Shown here: positions 5,026-18,655 of the stretch, piece after piece
Layout of the letters: each line of letters opens with the position of its first letter
Position numbering within the stretch: position 1 is the stretch's first letter
NCBI GenBank assembly: GCA_902787595.1
Contig: CADAHD010000028.1
Span: forward strand, 1 to 18,655
Length of the DNA stretch: 18,655 nt
Direction of reading: 5' to 3'
Origin: an uncultured Lachnospiraceae bacterium
GTDB lineage: Bacteria; Bacillota_A; Clostridia; Lachnospirales; Lachnospiraceae
The notes under the pieces: model-generated
Told to the model about the DNA's origin: nothing
Seen by the model: the letters and a program-made list of their open reading frames with translations, nothing else
Database searches by the model: none
Program-made: the position numbers and the translations under genes

Positions 5026-7417
5026 ATGTTGAGATATGACCTGTGCGGCGGCAGATGGGAAATGACCGACTGCACTACAAATAATGTATATCAGGCCGCT
5101 GCTCCGGGCAGTGTGCTTTCCGTGCTGCGTGAAGCAGGGGAGATAGGTGATCCTTATTTCGGTGAAAATGAGAAGGAGCTTTTGCCGTTATTTGAGAAGG
5201 ATTATGATTTTTCGACCCATTTTTCGATAAGGGGAGATATTTTTCAGGAAGAGGTACAGGAGCTGGTATTCGAAGGCCTTGATACCATCACCGAGATATA
5301 TCTTAACGGTGAAAAGCTGGGCAGGACCAGGAACATGCACCGCAAAAGAGCATAAAGAGATAAAGCAGAGCCCCGACGGCAGCATATACGGAGGGCATCT
5401 GCTCCGCAAGGCCCACTCATCCTTTGGCTGGGACTGGGGCCCCGTGCTTCCCGATATGGGCATTTTCCGCGGTATAAGGGTTGAAGCCTGGTCAAAAGTA
5501 AAGATCAGGGAAGTTTATTTCTTTCAGGAACATATTGACGGAAACGTAACGCTTTTTATCGATCCGGTTCTGGAGTTTTCGGATCCCATACCTGTGGAAA
5601 TGAGGATAGAGGTGAGCGGGGAGCGGCCTGTGGAGATCATGACCCGCATGCCCGATCCCGGAGTGACGTCCACGGAAAAAGGCGAAAATGAGATGGGCAT
5701 TCCCATACACGATCCCAGGCTCTGGTGGCCCAACGGCTGCGGTGAGCAGTATCTTTATGATGTGAGGATCACGCTTCGAAAGGCCAACCGTTCTTATGAT
5801 GATAGGAAATTCCGCATAGGTCTGCGCACAATAGAGCTGAGCCATCAGGCAGATGAATACGGCGAAGAGTTCTGTTTTGTCGTAAACGGCAAAAAGATCT
5901 TTGCAAGAGGCGCAAGCTATATCCCCGGGGACGCCGTTTATCCGGATACCACAGTCGAAAAGCAGCGCAGGCTGATCGACGCCGCGGCAGCAGCTAATTT
6001 TAACATGCTGCGCGTCTGGGGAGGCGGATATTATCCTTCGGATGCTTTTTATGATATGTGCGACGAGAAGGGCATAATGATATGGCAGGATCTTATGTAT
6101 TCAAACAATATCTATGACCTTACGCCCAAATTTGAAAAGAGCATACTGGCAGAGACGCGCGACAATGTATCACGCCTAAGGCATCATGCCTGCCTTGCAT
6201 TATGGTGCGGCAATGACGAGATGGAGAGCGCATGGGCCGATAAAGAGGGCTTTAAGGGGCATTCGCCCGCGCTCAAAGCCGATTATATAAAGATGTTCGA
6301 ATACCTTTTGCCAAAAAAAATGCGCGAAGAGGATGAGAGCACCGCATGGTGGCCTTCATCGCCTTCTTCGGGAGGCTGTTTTGAAGGACCGGGCGATGAA
6401 AACAGGGGAGATTCCCATTACTGGGAAGTATGGCGCGGATTCAAACCGTTTACGGAATATGCAGAGCATCACTTCCGCTTTTTATCGGCGTTTGGATTCC
6501 AGTCTTTTCCTTCGCTGAAGACCGTAAAGAGCTTTACGCGGCCGGAAGAACGCAATCCTTTTTCGCCCGTGATGGAAAGCCATCAGAAATATGAAAACGC
6601 CAATGGGAAGATACTTTATTACATTTCGGAGAATTTCCGTTATCCGAAGAATTTTGAGCAGCTTATATATGTGAGCCAGATACTGCAGGGAATGGCGGTC
6701 GAGTACGCCGTGGAGCATTTCAGGCGCGAGCGCGGACGCTGCATGGGCACGCTCTTCTGGCAGTTCAATGACAACTGGCCTGTGACCAGCTGGTCAGCCA
6801 TCGATCATTCAGGCAGATGGAAAGCCCTGCAGTATATGGCTGCGCGCTTTTATGCGCCGGTGGCCGGCAGCCTGCTGACAGACGGTCTTTGTGTTACCTC
6901 TTATGTGGTAAACGACAGTCCGGAGCCGGTAAGAGCAAAGGCAAGACTTACGCTTATGTCCACAGACGGGCAGGAGCTCACAAGATATACCGATGACGGA
7001 AAGGTAGAGCCGGGCGCTGTCTATAAGGGGATCAAGAGAGATTTTCATAAGCTTTCCGGCAGAAGTCCCAGAGAGGTATATGTGCTGGCGGAATATGATA
7101 TAAACGGCCAAAGCTTTACAAAAGAGGCGGTCTTTGTTCCCTACAAGTATCTGGAGCTTAAGAAGCCGGATATTTCCGTAGAGGTGCGTGAGACTGAAGA
7201 ATACTGGGAGATAGTGCTGTCTTCGGATGTATATGCGCCCTTTGTGATGCTCGATCTAAAGGAAGCCGATGCGGTATTTTCGGATAATGCATTCTCGCTT
7301 CACAAGGGAAGGGAGCGCATCATAAGCGCTGCCAAAGCGGACGTAAGCATGGACATTGAGGATGCGGAGAAGTTCAGAGAGCAGCTGGTGATCTATGATC
7401 TGTATAATTCATATTGA
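5026..7417 (+). pseudogene. GH2 beta-mannosidase, frameshifted and lacking its nucleophile
   Basis: This is a cytoplasmic-type GH2 beta-mannosidase, which removes terminal mannose from beta-mannosides. Frame one (5026-5355) gives the N-terminal sugar-binding domain with VFEGLDT, YLNGEKLG and NMHR, then reaches TAA. The rest continues in another frame from about 5345 to 7417 (KAHSSFGWDWGP, then Ig-like, barrel and C-terminal domains). Family members have about 50 residues between NMHR and the KAH(S/C)xFGWDWGP block. Here about 21 remain, so roughly 90 bp are missing at 5343/5345 and the frame is lost. The acid/base glutamate is present (LWCGNDE, codon 6218-6220). The nucleophile in the usual SEFGxQSFPS is alanine (LSAFGFQSFPS, GCG at 6488-6490). 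Two lesions point to a decaying gene, though the deletion alone could be an assembly error. The ribosome site GGGAG precedes ATG 5026. Confidence 0.85.
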
Positions 7418-9653: not shown

Positions 9654-11987
9654 ATGAAAAGAAAGAAAAACAAACGTATCGTCATAAAAGCAGTAACAGC
9701 TTTTGTGCTGATCTTTTTACTGTGCCTTAGTATGGGCGGAACAAAGGCTGCTGCCGGCGGAGAAGGCCTGCAGCCCTCTCCCGTGCCCACGCCTGCCGCT
9801 TCGGGAGAAGAAGACGCGCAGGGCGCTGTATCACAGGACGCCGTACCCACTCCCGCTGCAACGGAAGATGAGGATACGGATGAACTGACGCCCACACCGG
9901 CCGCATCCGAAAACGCGGCAGAACCCACCACAGCTGACGACGGCGCAGATGAATCCGCTGATGAGGGCGCATTTGTGCCCACGCCCACGCCTTTTCAGAT
10001 ACAGGAAGCAGAGATCACGCTTGCTTTTACCACTGCGATATATACAGGCTATGAGATAAGCCAGGAAGTGGTAAGCGTTGAGTGGAACCATAAACAGCTG
10101 ATAAAGGGCCGGGATTATGTTGTGACCGGAGCCCTTGTAAAGAAAGAAATAGGAACCTATACCGTATCGGTCATAGGCACCGGCGAATACAGCGGCACGG
10201 CAACGGCCAGCTGGAGCATAGTGGCGCCCACCCCTACTCCGACGCCTTCCGTAACACCCGAGGATCCTACCGGACCCGTAGAGCCTACCGTATCACCCAC
10301 TCCCGCTGACCCCACGCCCATACCCGATAAGGGATACAGGATCATAGGCGTTCAGGGCAAGACCTATACAGGCTCAAAGATCACCCAGGATGATATGATA
10401 GTCAGGTATGACGGACTGCTGCTGGCCAAGGGCAAGGATTATACCGTCAAATATAAGAATAATGTAAATGCCGGCGTAGCCAGCGTGGTCATAAAGGGCA
10501 AGGGCAACTACAAAGGAAGCTGCGAGGTGGAATTCACCATAGTGCCCGCGGATATAAACGAATGCGACACTTATGACGAGATCTCCCTGGCGGTGGGAGC
10601 CGCAATCTCCGAAAAGACTCCCGTCCTGCGCTGGAACGGCAAGGTATTAAAGCGCCTGCGCGATTTTGAGATGAGTATTCAGCCCAATGAGATCTACGAC
10701 CCCGGAACATATGATATAAGGCTCATGGGCGTCGGAAATTACAGCGGCAGCAGGATCATAAAGCTTACCATAATGGACGGCGTTTCGGTAAAGAAGCTGA
10801 GCCTGGGCAGGATAAAGGATCAGCACTGGACCGGCGCGGAGATAATGCCTGCCATCAACATCAAATACAAAAACGATGTAGTCACCAGGGGCATAGACGT
10901 GACCTATGAAAATAACATTGACGCGGGCACGGCTTATCTGGTGATCACCGGAAACGGTGAGCCGTTTAAAGAGAATATCCGCTTTGCCGGTCAGGTCAAA
11001 GTGCCCTTCAGGATCAGGGGCAGGGATATATCAGGCGCTGTCATAAAGGTCGAAAAGACAGTATATACCGGTTATGCCTGCACGCCGCGCATTACCGTAA
11101 AGATGGGATCGACAGAGCTGGTTGAGGAAATAGATTATACCGTAAGCTTTAAGGCCAATAAGAAAGTGGGTACTGCCACGGTCATCGTAAAAGGCTGCGG
11201 CGGATATACGGGCAAGGCAAAGAACGAATTTGAGATACAGCCCTGTTCGCTTAATAACAAGAATATAAAGATAGACCTTCCCACCAGGGTTTATTACGAA
11301 AAGGGAGGCCCCAAACCCAAGCCTGTGATCACCTATAACAATCTGCTGCTGGTAGAGAACAGGGATTATGTGGTGACTTACAGTGATAACAGGGATGCGG
11401 GCGACCTGTTCAAGGTTTGGATCGACGGCATCAACAATTATGAGGGCAGGTATTCCACGGAGATCATGTGCTATACCAAGCCGCTCGACATGACTGTATC
11501 GATGACTCCGGATATCAAGTGGAAAAAGAATACCCTGGTATCACGTTATATTTCAAAACCCGTTATAATCGATACCAACGGCAAGAGGCTGGAGGCGGGC
11601 AGGGATTATTACGAAGACTATGCGTATTTCGATATCCTGGGAAATCCCATTGACCGCAGCGAATATATGCCGATGGGCCGTGAGATACGCATAAGGGTCA
11701 AGGGCAAGGGAAATTACAGCGGTACCATCTTTGTAAGTTACCGCGCCGTTCCTCAGATGCTTTCGGGCGTAAGCTTTAAAGTGGAACCCCAGGTATATAC
11801 CGGATACGCTGTGGAGCCCGTGCAGTATGATGTTACCACTTCCATAGAGACCGGCGAATACGAGATACTGTATTATAAAAACAATGTCAAAACCGGGACC
11901 GCTACCATGGTGGTTCACGGACTGGGACAGTACGGCGGTTACAAGAAGGTTAAATTCAGCATAGTCAAGTACAGGCTGACGGATTAA
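9654..11987 (+). CDS. Secreted multi-domain Ig-like repeat protein
   Basis: This encodes a 777-residue exported protein. I chose ATG 9654 because GAGGA (9642-9646) is well spaced; a GTG at 9648 would add two residues. The signal peptide is MKRKKNKRIVIK, a hydrophobic core, then TKAAA as a likely cleavage site. Residues about 30-115 are a Pro/Thr/Glu linker with three PTPAA units and a TPTP stretch. About eight domains of 70-90 residues follow, most with YTG, a central G/N-x-DY(T/V)V, and G-x-GNY-x-G, as in clostridial surface proteins. A second TPTPTPS linker separates the first and second domains. No LPXTG, SLH or other anchor is visible, and no catalytic domain. It may be an adhesin, scaffold or matrix protein. 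It begins 10 bases after the alpha-galactosidase stop, which suggests co-transcription but not a shared function. Confidence 0.85.
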   Translation: MKRKKNKRIVIKAVTAFVLIFLLCLSMGGTKAAAGGEGLQPSPVPTPAASGEEDAQGAVSQDAVPTPAATEDEDTDELTPTPAASENAAEPTTADDGADESADEGAFVPTPTPFQIQEAEITLAFTTAIYTGYEISQEVVSVEWNHKQLIKGRDYVVTGALVKKEIGTYTVSVIGTGEYSGTATASWSIVAPTPTPTPSVTPEDPTGPVEPTVSPTPADPTPIPDKGYRIIGVQGKTYTGSKITQDDMIVRYDGLLLAKGKDYTVKYKNNVNAGVASVVIKGKGNYKGSCEVEFTIVPADINECDTYDEISLAVGAAISEKTPVLRWNGKVLKRLRDFEMSIQPNEIYDPGTYDIRLMGVGNYSGSRIIKLTIMDGVSVKKLSLGRIKDQHWTGAEIMPAINIKYKNDVVTRGIDVTYENNIDAGTAYLVITGNGEPFKENIRFAGQVKVPFRIRGRDISGAVIKVEKTVYTGYACTPRITVKMGSTELVEEIDYTVSFKANKKVGTATVIVKGCGGYTGKAKNEFEIQPCSLNNKNIKIDLPTRVYYEKGGPKPKPVITYNNLLLVENRDYVVTYSDNRDAGDLFKVWIDGINNYEGRYSTEIMCYTKPLDMTVSMTPDIKWKKNTLVSRYISKPVIIDTNGKRLEAGRDYYEDYAYFDILGNPIDRSEYMPMGREIRIRVKGKGNYSGTIFVSYRAVPQMLSGVSFKVEPQVYTGYAVEPVQYDVTTSIETGEYEILYYKNNVKTGTATMVVHGLGQYGGYKKVKFSIVKYRLTD
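10011..11970 (+). repeat. About eight tandem Ig-like protein repeats
   Basis: The encoded protein repeats a motif set: YTG near the start, DYTV/DYVV in the middle, GTAT or GTYT, then GxGNYxG before a closing beta strand. Good matches include DYTVKYKNN with GKGNYKG, DYTVSFKAN with GCGGYTG, and YKNNVKTGTATMVV with GLGQYGG. The third, fourth and sixth copies are divergent. The DNA copies are not identical, so this is old protein-level duplication, not a recent DNA repeat. The outer limits are approximate. Confidence 0.75.
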
Positions 11988-11990
11988 TGC

Positions 11991-12020
11991 TTGTATTATG
12001 ACCATGATATGTGGTAAAAT
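11991..12020 (+). promoter_or_regulatory. Predicted promoter of the small-ORF-clpS-clpA operon
   Basis: TTGTAT (11991-11996) and TAAAAT (12015-12020) are 18 bases apart, with TGG before the -10 box forming an extended -10. It starts just after the stop of the repeat-protein gene, and transcription would begin about 25 bases before the small ORF. A perfect inverted repeat overlaps the -10 box, suggesting regulation. Confidence 0.6.
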
Positions 12021-12025
12021 ATCAT
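12004..12025. promoter_or_regulatory. Inverted repeat over the -10 box, candidate operator
   Basis: ATGATAT (12004-12010) and ATATCAT (12019-12025) are exact inverted copies with an 8-base spacer, and the second arm overlaps the -10 hexamer. Centre-to-centre spacing of 15 bases is somewhat longer than one helical turn but compatible with a dimeric repressor. It could also form a weak RNA hairpin if transcription started earlier. The regulator is unknown. Confidence 0.4.
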
Positions 12026-12053
12026 AGTTTCAGAAAAACCCGGAGGCAGTAAA

Positions 12054-12188
12054 ATGGCAGGATCAACGTTTATAACTTTAGTTACCATCTTTGGCGGAGC
12101 ACTGATAATCATTCTGGCAGTGGTGATCTCGGTTGTGAGTACCTTTGTCAGCTCCGTGGCATCTGCGGTGGATGATGAAGAGGAGTAA
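12054..12188 (+). CDS. 44-residue membrane protein with acidic tail
   Basis: ATG 12054 follows a good ribosome site (CGGAGG, 12041-12046) and opens a 44-codon frame ending at TAA 12186-12188. The product starts MAGSTFITLV and has one long hydrophobic stretch (about residues 6-34), then the tail SAVDDEEE. It contains no lysine or arginine at all, so topology is hard to predict. The clpS start codon lies two bases after its stop, and the codons for the final glutamates (GAAGAGGAG) also serve as the clpS ribosome site. This indicates tight translational coupling. I do not recognise a family. It could be a membrane tether or regulator of the Clp system, a small stress protein, or a translated leader. 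Confidence 0.7.
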   Translation: MAGSTFITLVTIFGGALIIILAVVISVVSTFVSSVASAVDDEEE

Positions 12189-12190
12189 CA

Positions 12191-12520
12191 ATGGCAGATA
12201 AGACAGGCAGAAAAGTCATGCACGATGAGGGCTGCAATGTGCAGTCCTCTGTTCGTATTAAGCCCAAGAAACCTTCACTTTACAAGGTTATAATGCTGAA
12301 TGATGATGTCACCACCATGGACTTTGTGGTGGAGATATTAAAGGATATCTTTGGCAAGAGCAATGAACAGGCCGTTGAGCTGATGCTCAAGGTGCATCAT
12401 GAAGGACGCGCTGTGATAGCCACATATATTTACGATATAGCAAAGACAAAACAGCGGCAGGCGATGGAACGGGCCAGAGCCCAGGGCTTCCCCTTCCGCA
12501 TTGATATAGAGAGTGAATGA
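12191..12520 (+). CDS. clpS: ClpS, N-degron adaptor of ClpAP
   Basis: This encodes a 109-residue adaptor that binds proteins bearing destabilising N-terminal residues and hands them to ClpA. Residues 1-28 are the flexible N-terminal extension that is fed into ClpA. The core carries the recognition residues aligned with E. coli ClpS: N37-D38-D39, T41, M43 and H69 (in LNDDVTTMDFV and KVHHEG). The start ATG 12191 uses a ribosome site inside the previous small gene. The gene's TGA (12518-12520) is followed by the clpA ATG 10 bases later, so adaptor and unfoldase are translated together. The clpP protease subunit is not in the window. Confidence 0.96.
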   Translation: MADKTGRKVMHDEGCNVQSSVRIKPKKPSLYKVIMLNDDVTTMDFVVEILKDIFGKSNEQAVELMLKVHHEGRAVIATYIYDIAKTKQRQAMERARAQGFPFRIDIESE

Positions 12521-12530
12521 GGACAACATT

Positions 12531-14990
12531 ATGATGTTTGATGATATGACAGAAAAAGTTATGCAGAGTATGCTTTACAAGGCATCAAAGATGGGAAGTG
12601 AATTTGTCACTCCCGAGCATGTGCTGTATACCTGTCTCGATCTGCCTGTATTTACCAAGGCTCTGGTTATGAACGGCGGAGATCCCAAGGAATTAAAGGC
12701 CGATCTGGATGATTTCCTTACTACCATGCTGCCTGCTGTCAAGAAGTCTGAAAATGAAGACATACGCAGCATAGGCGACCGCATTTCCGATTCTTTTGCG
12801 CGCATGATAGAAATGGCTGTGGAAGTGGCGGAGCATACGGGAAGCAAGCATATCTGCCTTTACCATGTGATCTATGCCATGAGCAAGCTCGAAGAGAGCT
12901 TTGCGGAATACTTCCTGACCCAGCAGGTGGGGAAGATCAGTGATTTTGTGTCTACTCTGGAGCTTCTTATCAACGGCAGCGCTCCTGCGCTTCCTTATGA
13001 TGATGAATTTCCGGATGAAGATATGGGCGCGCCGGAGGACTTTGTGCTGGAGTATGCGCGTCTTATGAACGATATGGTGGGTGAGCGCAATCCCCTTATA
13101 GGGCGTGATAGCGAGCTTGACCGCATAATACGCATACTGCTGCGTAAAGAGAAGAATAATCCTCTGCTGATAGGCGAGCCCGGGGTGGGCAAGACCAGCA
13201 TAGTATACGGGCTGGTGGAACGCATCGAAAAGGGAGAAGTGCCCGAAGGCCTTAAGAAGGCGCCGGTCTATGCGCTTGAAGTGGGAGCCCTGCTGGCCGG
13301 GACCCAGTACCGCGGAGATTTTGAGAAGCGTTTCCTGGACATAATGGATGCGCTTGAAGATATGGAGAGGCCCATAGTATTCATAGACGAGATACATAAT
13401 CTGATAGGCGCGGGTTCGTCCGGCAGCGGCGGGATGGACGCGTCCAATATGATGAAGCCTTATCTGGAGGGCGGCAATATCCGTTTTATCGGCGCTACCA
13501 CCTATGATGAGCATAAGAAGTATTTTTCTAAAAATGCCACTCTTTCCAGGCGTTTTCAGAAGGTGGATATAAAAGAACCGACAGAAGATGAAGCTTTAAG
13601 GATTTTAGAGGGAATAAAAAGCAGTTACGAGCATTATCATAATGTGAAGTACGGAAAGGACGTGCTTTTACATGCGGTGCACCTCAGCAAACAATTTATA
13701 GGAGGCAGATTTCTGCCCGATAAGGCCATTGACCTTATAGATGAAGCTGCTGCCTACAGGCGCATGCACCCGCTGACAGGCCAGAAGAAACAGACTGTCG
13801 GCAAGGATGTTATCGAGACTGTGCTGGCAGAGATAGGAAACATACCCAAACAGACTGCGGAACAGTCCGAGCTGGACGGCCTTAAGGATCTGTACGAGCG
13901 CATAACGGGAAGCATATACGGACAGGAGGAAGCAGTCCGCAGGATCACCGAAGCCATCTGCATGTCGCGTGCGGGACTTCTGGCAGATAACAAGCCCATT
14001 GCAAGCTTTTTGTTTGTGGGACCTACGGGCGTGGGTAAGACCGAGGTGGCAAAAGTCCTGGCAAAGGAGCTGGGAGTGGAATTCATACGTTTTGATATGA
14101 GTGAATATGCGGAAAAGCATACGGTATCAAAGCTCATAGGTTCACCTGCAGGTTATGTGGGTTATGATGACGGCGGCCTGCTGACCGATGCCATCAGAAA
14201 GACGCCACACTGCGTGCTGCTTCTGGACGAGATCGAAAAGGCGCATCCCGATATTTATAATGTGCTGCTGCAGGTTATGGATTATGCTTCGCTTACCGAT
14301 AACCGCGGCCAGAAGGCGGACTTCCGCAATGTGATCATCATCATGACCAGCAATGCGGGCGCCAGGATGATAGGAAAGCAGAATATAGGCTTTGGCGCAT
14401 CCAAGTTCAACGACAGCGTTATGATGGAAGAGGTAAAGCGCGTCTTTACGCCTGAATTCCGCAACCGACTGAGCGCAGTGGTAACCTTCAATCATATGAA
14501 CAGCCGCATGGCCGGACAGATAACCGATAAGAAGATAGCAGAACTGTCCGAACGCCTTAAGACCCGCAAAGTGCAGATACAGGTAGGTGATGATGCAAAG
14601 GATTATATCGTAAAGAGAGCCATCACAAAGGATTACGGCGGGCGTGAGATAGAGCGCATCATCGACAGCGAGGTCAAGCCGCTCTTCGTATCTGAGATAT
14701 TATTCGGCAGTCTTAAGAACGGCGGCGATGCAAAGCTTATCATGAAAGATGGCAAGCCCGCTCTGGAAGGCAAAAGATCCGCACAGGGCTCTTCGGTCAA
14801 AAAGACCATCGAACCTGAGGATCTGATAAACGGAAAGAAGACAGGGCCTAAAAAGCCGGATACAAAAAACTCAGGCTCAAAGAAAAGCGACCCTAAAAAA
14901 CCGGGACCCGCAAAGGGCGGTAAGGCTCAGGCGGGGAAAAAGCTCAGCCAGAAGGTAAAGCGCAGCAGCGGTAAGAAAGAGGAGGAGTAA
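12531..14990 (+). CDS. clpA: ClpA, ClpP-associated AAA+ unfoldase
   Basis: This encodes an 819-residue hexameric unfoldase that feeds substrates to ClpP. I prefer ATG 12531, as GAGGA at 12518-12522 is correctly spaced; an in-frame GTG at 12513 would overlap clpS and add six residues. Domains are the Clp N-domain (about 1-145, binds ClpS), AAA-1 with Walker A GEPGVGKT (about 215-222) and Walker B VFIDEIH (about 283-289), and AAA-2 with Walker A GPTGVGKT (about 497-504) and Walker B VLLLDEIE. There is no ClpB/ClpC-type middle coiled coil. The ClpP-docking tripeptide is I619-G620-F621, before TPEFRNRL. E. coli ClpA is 758 residues. The excess is mostly a C-terminal tail (about 765-819) rich in Lys, Pro, Gly and Ser and ending KKEEE, which is unusual for the family. 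Confidence 0.97.
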   Translation: MMFDDMTEKVMQSMLYKASKMGSEFVTPEHVLYTCLDLPVFTKALVMNGGDPKELKADLDDFLTTMLPAVKKSENEDIRSIGDRISDSFARMIEMAVEVAEHTGSKHICLYHVIYAMSKLEESFAEYFLTQQVGKISDFVSTLELLINGSAPALPYDDEFPDEDMGAPEDFVLEYARLMNDMVGERNPLIGRDSELDRIIRILLRKEKNNPLLIGEPGVGKTSIVYGLVERIEKGEVPEGLKKAPVYALEVGALLAGTQYRGDFEKRFLDIMDALEDMERPIVFIDEIHNLIGAGSSGSGGMDASNMMKPYLEGGNIRFIGATTYDEHKKYFSKNATLSRRFQKVDIKEPTEDEALRILEGIKSSYEHYHNVKYGKDVLLHAVHLSKQFIGGRFLPDKAIDLIDEAAAYRRMHPLTGQKKQTVGKDVIETVLAEIGNIPKQTAEQSELDGLKDLYERITGSIYGQEEAVRRITEAICMSRAGLLADNKPIASFLFVGPTGVGKTEVAKVLAKELGVEFIRFDMSEYAEKHTVSKLIGSPAGYVGYDDGGLLTDAIRKTPHCVLLLDEIEKAHPDIYNVLLQVMDYASLTDNRGQKADFRNVIIIMTSNAGARMIGKQNIGFGASKFNDSVMMEEVKRVFTPEFRNRLSAVVTFNHMNSRMAGQITDKKIAELSERLKTRKVQIQVGDDAKDYIVKRAITKDYGGREIERIIDSEVKPLFVSEILFGSLKNGGDAKLIMKDGKPALEGKRSAQGSSVKKTIEPEDLINGKKTGPKKPDTKNSGSKKSDPKKPGPAKGGKAQAGKKLSQKVKRSSGKKEEE

Positions 14991-17163: not shown

Positions 17164-18655
17164 ATGAACCATCATTATCTTAGAAATGCCCTTCCGACGG
17201 ACCGCGGCAGATATTTAAACTGGATGAAGGACGAGGAACTCCGCAAGAGTTCCTTTGGTCTGGAGCAGGACGACTATGAAAATGACAGAGCCTGGTTTGA
17301 GGCTCTTATGAAAGACGAAGAGACCGACAAGCTGGTCTACATGGACTTCTTCATGGCGCTGGGTGAAGCGAGAGTGATCCCTTCCCGGGATGAAGAAGGC
17401 ACCGGACTGGTCTCCTTAAGCGTATCCCGTGAATTCAGGGGACAGGGCATAGAAGCAGAACTGTTCGCGGCCCTGAAGGAAAAGCTTAAGGATAAGTATA
17501 AAAAGCTTGTGGCTGTGGATATTGCGGAAGAAACATTAAAGCCGGCTCCGCCTAAGGAGCGTGACGGCCGTTTTGAGATACTCCGCATCCTGGCCATGTT
17601 CATGATAATCACCATGCATTATCTGGGAAGCGGTGATCTTTTAAATCCACTCTCAACGGACAAAAGCGGCGCGAATATTATATTCTGGCTTGTGGAAGCA
17701 TTATGCTTTGCTTCAGTTAATGTATATGTGATGATAAGCGGCTACTATTCGGTAGATACCCGCTTTTCCCTGCGTAAGTTTATAAAGCTCTGGTGCGAGA
17801 TCTTTTTTTACAGCGTGGTGATAGGTGCCGTCTGTTTTGTTACGGGCATTGTAAGTTTTGAAGAGCATGCCAATCTGTTTGAGCTGCAGTATCTGGTATT
17901 CCCTGTGAGCAACGGCCATTACTGGTTTGCCACGGCATATATGATCCTGATGCTCATAGCGCCTTTCCTTGGACGCGGCTTTAAGGCGCTCAATAAGCTG
18001 CAGCATGGTTTTATACTGATCTGCCTTCTGGTATTTACCTGCGTATTTAAGAGCATCTTCCCCATGCACATGATGGGTCTGGAAGATCACGGCTGCGGAC
18101 TGCAGTGGTTCATAACGCTTTATGTGCTGGCGGCATATATCCGCCTCTATGGTCTGCCTTTCTGCAAGACAAAGGCGGGATCTGCCATATCATATGTATT
18201 CTGGTCGGTGCTGGTAGTGCCCTGCATTAGCCTGATGTACGGTATGGAAAACGGTGATATCGGGGGCTTGCATTTCGAAAACGCAAGTCTTCTGGTTGAT
18301 GATTACAATCATCTTCTGGTGCTTCTTTCAAGCGTCGGGGGCTTGCATTTCGAAAACGCAAGTCTTCTGGTTGATGATTACAATCATCTTCTGGTGCTTC
18401 TTTCAAGCGTCAGTCTGTTTATGATCTTTGTGAACATGAAGCCCATAAAGGGTAAGACGGCGGTCCTTATCTCAAAGATATCTGCCTGCGCCTTTGGTGT
18501 ATATCTTATACATGCCCATCTTTATCTGGAGAATACATGGCCTAAATGGTTAGGCATATCTGCGCCCAGGCAGGCGATGCGTCCCGTGCATCTTATAGCT
18601 TCTGTGCTGGGGATCTTTGTGGTCTGCTGTATCATAGATTTTATCAGGCAGATCA
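17164..18655 (+). CDS. GNAT-like/acyltransferase-3 fusion, 3' end outside the window
   Basis: An open frame of 497 codons runs from ATG 17164 (GGGGGAG at 17153-17159) to the window edge. Residues 1-125 resemble a GNAT N-acetyltransferase of the type that acetylates aminodeoxy-sugars (ELRKSSFG, AWFEALMKD, SREFRGQGIEAEL). The acetyl-CoA loop RxxGxG/A reads R92-G-Q-G95-I-E97, so the last small residue is lost. After a PAPPKERD linker, about residue 136 onward is an integral membrane acyltransferase-3 domain (FEILRILAMFMIITMHYLG with H152, VNVYVMISGYY, HYWFATAYMILML) with many membrane helices. Such domains move acyl groups onto surface glycans. Next to pseB, a role in modifying a nucleotide-activated or exported sugar is likely. 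A perfect 25-residue duplication occurs at 18261-18410. Confidence 0.82.
   Translation, partial: MNHHYLRNALPTDRGRYLNWMKDEELRKSSFGLEQDDYENDRAWFEALMKDEETDKLVYMDFFMALGEARVIPSRDEEGTGLVSLSVSREFRGQGIEAELFAALKEKLKDKYKKLVAVDIAEETLKPAPPKERDGRFEILRILAMFMIITMHYLGSGDLLNPLSTDKSGANIIFWLVEALCFASVNVYVMISGYYSVDTRFSLRKFIKLWCEIFFYSVVIGAVCFVTGIVSFEEHANLFELQYLVFPVSNGHYWFATAYMILMLIAPFLGRGFKALNKLQHGFILICLLVFTCVFKSIFPMHMMGLEDHGCGLQWFITLYVLAAYIRLYGLPFCKTKAGSAISYVFWSVLVVPCISLMYGMENGDIGGLHFENASLLVDDYNHLLVLLSSVGGLHFENASLLVDDYNHLLVLLSSVSLFMIFVNMKPIKGKTAVLISKISACAFGVYLIHAHLYLENTWPKWLGISAPRQAMRPVHLIASVLGIFVVCCIIDFIRQI
18261..18410 (+). repeat. Perfect 75-bp tandem duplication inside the acyltransferase gene
   Basis: Bases 18261-18335 are repeated exactly at 18336-18410, and identity extends one base on each side. 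The unit is 25 codons, so the reading frame is kept. Each unit encodes a segment starting GGLHFENASLLVDDYNH and ending LLVLLSSV, part of a membrane helix. Each unit contains an imperfect palindrome (18267-18287 and 18342-18362; 8 of 10 positions pair), which could favour slippage. A recent duplication and an assembly artefact both fit. Confidence 0.97.

Follow-up and report, generated by a model that had tools for sequence, protein, structure and literature searches.

The window, as we call the whole stretch of 18,655 nt analysed here, carries a short open reading frame directly in front of clpS and clpA, and it raises the question of whether this frame is a gene in its own right and why it stands before the genes of an N-degron adaptor and its unfoldase. 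The initial annotation had read the frame as a small membrane protein made in step with ClpS, which might recruit ClpSA to the membrane, possibly by pairing of its acidic tail with a basic tail of ClpA. The features needed for the argument are as follows.

12012..12020, plus strand: extended -10-like promoter element TGGTAAAAT, by consensus match only
12042..12046, plus strand: GGAGG, Shine-Dalgarno (SD)-like ribosome-binding site of the small gene
12054..12188, plus strand: small gene; 44-aa hydrophobic protein with an acidic C-terminal tail, of an unnamed family
12171..12188, plus strand: acidic tail codons GAT GAT GAA GAG GAG and the stop codon
12191..12520, plus strand: clpS (PF02617; Pfam E 3.1e-32), starting 2 nt after the small-gene stop
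12191..12280, plus strand: codons for the 30-aa N-terminal extension of the window's ClpS
12215..12262, plus strand: clpS codons 9-24, with 12 degenerate, residue-invariant codons unchanged synonymously in 5 species
12227..12249, plus strand: hairpin GAGGGCTGCA-ATG-TGCAGTCCTC inside clpS, matching the intergenic hairpin of relatives in place and stem
12513..14990, plus strand: clpA (Pfam) with a basic C-terminal tail, taken from the GTG that opens the longest frame, with 12531 or 12534 as possible true starts

The frame proved to be as first described: it begins with ATG at 12054 behind its ribosome site, ends with TAA at 12186-12188, and specifies a 44-aa product, MAGSTFITLVTIFGGALIIILAVVISVVSTFVSSVASAVDDEEE, that has a single hydrophobic stretch, lacks K, R and H altogether and ends in DDEEE. 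The claimed 2-base gap between its stop and the clpS ATG at 12191 is also there (TAA-CA-ATG), and GAGGAG at 12180-12185 forms both the last two small-gene codons and the likely SD of clpS. A protein search with the small product (E<=1) gave 12 matches with local-alignment identities of 73-98%, one of which (P0012) covers only 14% of the query; in the multiple alignment of the matches, identity to the window is 68-98%, and the core is nearly and the DDEE tail fully unchanged. Pairwise dN/dS, suggested at the outset as a check for purifying selection, bears such selection out with values of 0.077-0.183 in the seven of ten pairs that have a finite dS, the other three being saturated (window, L001, L003, L004 and L005; L002 was excluded for its length). 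Over 26 core codons of the window and L001-L005, the true frame has a mean pS of 0.67 and pN of 0.09, against pS/pN of 0.20/0.27 and 0.08/0.31 for the two shifted frames. A chance or non-coding frame is ruled out by the conserved matches and the low dN/dS, and on these comparisons 12054-12188 is a genuine gene under purifying selection. AlphaFold2 predicts for the product one helix over residues 2-43 (mean pLDDT 89.8), and such a single predicted helix is by itself no proof of membrane insertion.

Family membership was examined in an alignment (A3) of 37 rows, drawn from 42 small-gene loci (window, L001-L005 and L066-L101) by leaving out L071, L094, L099, L100 and L101; gene starts were picked by SD strength, and those of L067, L079, L096 and L097 were set by hand. 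The core of the family reads GGxLIIIxAVVISVVSSVVSSVASAV and is followed by an acidic tail, and G44, G45, I50 and S63 (L075 numbering) are invariant in all 37 rows. The window protein has both defining elements, the core GGxLIII-AVVISVVSSVVSSVASAV and, with DDEEE, the acidic tail. A longer N-terminus is found in 21 of the 37 rows and is mostly signal-peptide-like as judged by eye (endings MPVQAA and MPVMAA); such forms would have the N-terminus outside and the tail inside, and the window form, which has no longer N-terminus, may be oriented either way. Matches to the family at E<=0.01 occur in 45 of 144 relatives of genome G003 (the weakest at 0.006, and seven genomes weaker than 1e-7), with one match per genome except for a weak second match in G001. 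Order-wide, 27 of 392 genomes match at E<=0.001, and at least 548 database proteins do so at E<=1e-3 out of 7,995 scored candidates. No curated family matched the window protein, and among the first 25 families per library, Pfam, NCBIfam, PHROGs and PADLOC gave none that was convincing for the members: any listed family matched at most 5 of the 37, the best E was 1.5e-4, and the matches were scattered over unrelated families. Judged by this alignment, the small protein is a member of an unnamed Lachnospiraceae family. The unannotated genes of the Lachnospiraceae are joined by a family of membrane miniproteins that appears to be single-copy and whose tie to the N-degron protease can be tested.

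Single-helix membrane miniproteins such as CydX, AcrZ and KdpF are about 30-50 aa long and have one hydrophobic helix. The small protein differs from these in its acidic tail, its serine-spaced helix and the lack of a convincing curated match. Excerpts of PMC7765950 give SxxSSxxT and SxxxSSxxT as serine motifs of associating transmembrane helices; SVVSSVVSS in the family core fits SxxSSxxS, in which the last Ser replaces the Thr of the motif, and the window has its own version, SVVSTFVSS.

The neighbours of stand-alone family copies are varied (SAH hydrolase-like, rplT-like, MoxR-like, CpaF-like and others, named by eye). At L090, L135, L141, L145 and L147 the small gene is divergent from a CpaF/TadA-like ATPase gene (by eye), with one frame between the two at L090, and a gene whose product starts with NNLPxVKxGIVAVSRDCFPESL lies nearby in L090, L133, L135, L141 and L143. 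Both of these neighbourhoods are shared synteny of another lineage.

The position in front of clpS is well conserved in one part of the family. Of the 45 family genomes, 28 have the small gene immediately 5' of clpS-clpA and on the same strand, so that the conservation upstream of clpS by which the initial annotation wished to be judged is found in 28 of 144 related genomes and in the window. In the ClpA tree, computed with the tails removed and rooted at its midpoint, one branch (100/100) splits the 29 linked from the 19 unlinked rows, and no loss of linkage was seen within the linked clade; because one branch separates the two, the most economical interpretation is that the linkage arose once. 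We consider the operon position of the small gene to be meaningful. Three genomes (G056, G075 and G080) have the small gene and clpS apart, and 14 of the 45 family genomes, some of which may be incomplete, have no ClpS match. The small gene was read in 10 of these 14 (G036, G059, G068 and G079 were left out), and the acidic tail is kept in all 10. Thus ClpS is present in 31 of the 45 family genomes, and a family match is missing in 16 of 47 ClpS genomes. The small protein is not an obligate Clp partner, because the two do not co-occur consistently and the family, acidic tail included, is present in genomes without a ClpS match.

We next consider how the linked genes may be transcribed. The motif TGTGGTA occurs in 16 of 41 regions upstream of the small gene, against a background of 0.011 per 130 nt, and all 29 linked loci have a -10-like element at a distance of 15-90 nt before that gene. 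Downstream of the small gene, 23 of the 29 linked loci have a hairpin of E<=-8 kcal/mol with at least 5 T in the next 8 nt, compared with 1 of 87 stretches shuffled so as to preserve base composition alone. The six loci that failed this test were five loci in which clpS is coupled to the small gene, explained below, and L071, which has a shorter hairpin GGGACTGCGCAGCGGTCCC followed by TTTT. Including L071, a terminator-like hairpin stands 3' of the small gene in 24 of 24 linked uncoupled loci; these relatives have the GC-rich stem and the directly following U-tract of an intrinsic terminator. The gap separating the hairpin end from the clpS start measures 12-249 nt, with a median of 42, and is shorter than 45 nt at 16 of the 24 loci. 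Only 2 of the 24 gaps contain a -10-like element, and none of the eight longest (at least 63 nt) does, whereas 10 of 24 stretches of matched length taken from before the small gene have one; several of the 24 loci are near-copies and thus not independent. Because -10-like elements are so few after the hairpin, clpSA of the uncoupled loci is probably fed mostly by read-through from the small-gene promoter, and such dependence would explain the retained gene order. Alternatively, clpSA could be fed by a promoter that overlaps either the hairpin or the small ORF, and a 9-of-12 promoter match does lie inside the small ORF of the window (12082-12109).

The close spacing of the window is restricted to a part of the linked loci. 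Coupling at 2 nt is found in 5 of 29 only (window, L001, L002, L003 and L005), and these five form one clade on the ClpA tree (100/100). Since the terminator-like hairpin separates the genes in the other 24 linked loci, the 2-nt coupling is, on this tree, a derived state confined to the window's clade. The translational coupling first proposed is therefore likely in the window's clade, with its 2-nt gap, and does not hold in general, the other 24 linked loci being uncoupled. Locus L004 has downstream genes from the same clusters, a glf-like one and the two after it, and yet is in the uncoupled state, with a terminator-like hairpin and the clpS start 34 nt after it.

The five coupled loci likewise have such a stem, GAGGGCTGC...GCAGTCCTC, and then TGTTCGTATT, which replaces the U-tract. 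In the window the stem retains -15.6 kcal/mol, with 4 T in the following 8 nt and a longest T run of 2; the looser terminator scan still lists this intra-clpS hairpin, and termination at the decayed hairpin may be gone altogether. The clpS ATG stands 36 nt before the hairpin, which places the hairpin within the codons of the ClpS N-terminal extension. This extension is 30 aa long in the window; among the 24 uncoupled relatives, with starts chosen by script, it measures 22-26 aa in 22 and 39 aa in the other two. The terminator that the relatives have between the small gene and clpS thus appears, from its place and stem, to have been swallowed into the clpS coding sequence here. A search for known RNA families over 11900-12700 gave none at E<=1, and a 4-nt-loop hairpin pattern, to which the window's own hairpin is invisible, gave 0 matches in the window. 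L001, L002 and L005 have GAGGACTG at the small-gene stop, a stretch able to pair with the hairpin's CAGTCCTC; the possible alternative fold in which the clpS SD is hidden by pairing with the right arm of the hairpin is the minimum-energy fold in L005 only.

The hairpin lies in a part of clpS that is unusually fixed at synonymous sites. The five coupled loci have 80 residue-invariant degenerate clpS codons, 51 of which vary synonymously. Twelve such codons within codons 9-24 form a fixed run that covers the hairpin, while the remaining 4 codons there vary in residue. Shuffling the clpS codons gave an equally long run in 1 of 20,000 trials, a longest-run statistic for which, unlike the Fisher test (p 1.2e-5 for a region chosen after inspection), the region was not preselected. 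Six genes (clpS, clpA, glf, the last with four sequences rather than five, and three others) have 1,971 such codons between them, and this is the longest run they contain, the next being 11 and 8. The run of 11 degenerate codons without synonymous change among the five clade members is located in clpA at 13608-13643 (EGIKSSYEHYHN). Variation within the 23-nt hairpin is restricted to the loop or an A-U/G-U closing pair; the stem arms of the five coupled sequences are identical save for that one pair, so that compensatory change cannot be judged. In the small gene of the coupled clade, 4 of 27 degenerate residue-invariant codons are synonymously fixed, three of them among the last four. The codons GAA GAG of this clade look fixed for the clpS SD, which would not be the full cause of the tail; a tail that is a mere by-product of this SD was rejected, because uncoupled and clpS-less members are acidic as well.

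Excerpts of PMC9663308 describe the E. coli ClpS extension as mostly poorly conserved and changeable, and the strict conservation found here, set against it, favours a role at the nucleotide level, albeit on a small sample of five sequences. A cause other than the hairpin, such as an internal start at codon 17 giving a short ClpS, or a DNA-binding site, is improbable in our estimate. Four of the five coupled loci have GTG as codon 17 and the fifth has TTG, and two predicted ClpS relatives (P0019 and P0021) begin at its equivalent, so the upstream clpS start may not hold in all relatives; however, P0018 has Ala and no start codon there, the internal start would sit in or beside the loop of a stable hairpin, and all five coupled loci have an uninterrupted frame from 12191 onward, in which residue changes are few and mostly conservative.

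As to the small protein itself, the membrane anchor or regulator of ClpSA envisaged at first, with pairing between its acidic tail and the basic tail of ClpA, would fit the linkage in 29 rows of one deep clade. It would also fit the strongly basic added tail of the window ClpA, which was found again at 81 aa and net +14 by a common alignment cut (74 aa and +13 by another cut). A tail of at least 27 aa with a net charge of at least +3 is present in 25 of 29 linked ClpAs against 1 of 19 unlinked ones, and the median net charges are +7 and +1 (Mann-Whitney p 6e-6, uncorrected for kinship). However, on the ClpA tree the state "linked with basic tail" switches just two times, which amounts to one or two evolutionary events and not to independent proof of tail pairing. 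Four linked loci (L074, L080, L082 and L086) have ClpA tails of only 7-15 aa with net 0 to +1, the ClpAs of the three genomes with the genes apart end in 8-12 residues of net -2 to +2, and unlinked tails range from -3 to +8, with 6 of 19, short or long, at +3 or above (L164 at +8, L160 and L169 at +5 among them). With ClpS matches absent from 14 of 45 family genomes in addition, we regard such a membrane anchor or regulator as unlikely, and the evidence on tail pairing as ambiguous. Chances appear evenly balanced that the small protein is unrelated to proteolysis and a mere promoter donor, behind which clpSA has stayed in dependence on that promoter: the stand-alone members adjoin unrelated genes in the neighbourhoods read, and the terminator-like hairpin directly after the small gene in 24 linked loci and the scarcity of -10-like elements before clpS (2 of 24) point the same way, whereas the basic ClpA tail within the linked lineage is not predicted by it, though this may be coincidence.

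Two further readings fare much worse. The 2-nt spacing and the clpS SD within the last codons are what a leader would have whose translation only serves clpS, but the peptide sequence of a leader would not be conserved beyond the regulatory site, and the family alignment and the low dN/dS show that this one is, also in uncoupled and clpS-less genomes; this makes a leader extremely improbable. Type I toxin-like peptides, which damage membranes, resemble the small protein in size, single helix and charged tail. Against such a toxin stand a single-copy chromosomal gene kept in one place across a deep clade, weak and scattered PADLOC and PHROG matches, and the absence of any listed minus-strand promoter match over or just downstream of the ORF, and we consider it very unlikely.

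On the basis of the sequence comparisons that establish the gene, its family, the one linked clade, the hairpin of the relatives, its location inside clpS and the synonymous constraint, we narrowly favour the account of a promoter-sharing operon with a leaky terminator that was incorporated into clpS in the window's clade. The gene at 12054-12188 would be the first of a small-clpS-clpA unit, its product a putative one-helix membrane miniprotein with an acidic tail that probably self-associates via its serine/small-residue face, and its promoter the likely main clpSA promoter in this lineage. The intergenic hairpin would stop most transcripts after the small gene and let a minority read through, and a layout of this kind suggests that the membrane protein is in excess over ClpSA. 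In the window's clade the U-tract would then have decayed and the clpS start moved upstream across the hairpin, which now lies within the codons of the ClpS N-terminal extension. Ribosomes finishing the small gene would reach the clpS start 2 nt further on and melt the hairpin, and clpSA expression would become tied to small-gene translation. A more tentative idea, which we hold to be possible and rather doubtful, is that the captured terminator has stayed active as an intragenic attenuator, which ribosomes coming off the small membrane gene would open. If true, translation of a membrane miniprotein would set how much ClpSA is supplied, and RNA structure would determine part of the ClpS extension gripped by ClpA. 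In this clade a terminator can be compared before and after it became coding sequence, since relatives keep the old state, and the effect on expression is measurable.

Several known systems can be compared with this arrangement. The ClpS of the window, like the E. coli adaptor in excerpts of PMC9663308, has an intact PF02617 core, an extension of similar size (E. coli residues 2-26) and prolines before the core, and differs in that the hairpin encodes part of the extension and is fixed to the synonymous sites in five species. A terminator-like hairpin is shared with transcription attenuators that respond to ribosomes or proteins, such as B. subtilis bmrCD and rplJL as they appear in excerpts of PMC4191407 and PMC4538822, and, as in ribosome-mediated attenuation, the effect of the hairpin would depend on translation of the upstream small frame. 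Unlike in these two, the hairpin of putative activity lies inside the coding sequence of the downstream gene, and the upstream frame is a conserved protein. Actinobacterial ClpS operons, compared here by description and from excerpts of PMC1779556, include an uncharacterised helical protein and so likewise have clpS beside an uncharacterised small gene; their layout is another one, with ThiS/MoaD-, JAB- and cysteine synthase-type genes. The literature search found no paper joining Lachnospiraceae, a small transmembrane protein and clpS.

Two observations concern other parts of the window. At 5026-7417 a glycoside hydrolase-like frame (by eye) appears to be split into the overlapping frames 5026-5355 and 5279-7417, by a frameshift or a sequencing error. 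At 17164-18654 an acyltransferase-like frame, also named by eye, contains a tandem duplication of GGLHFENASLLVDDYNHLLVLLSSV.
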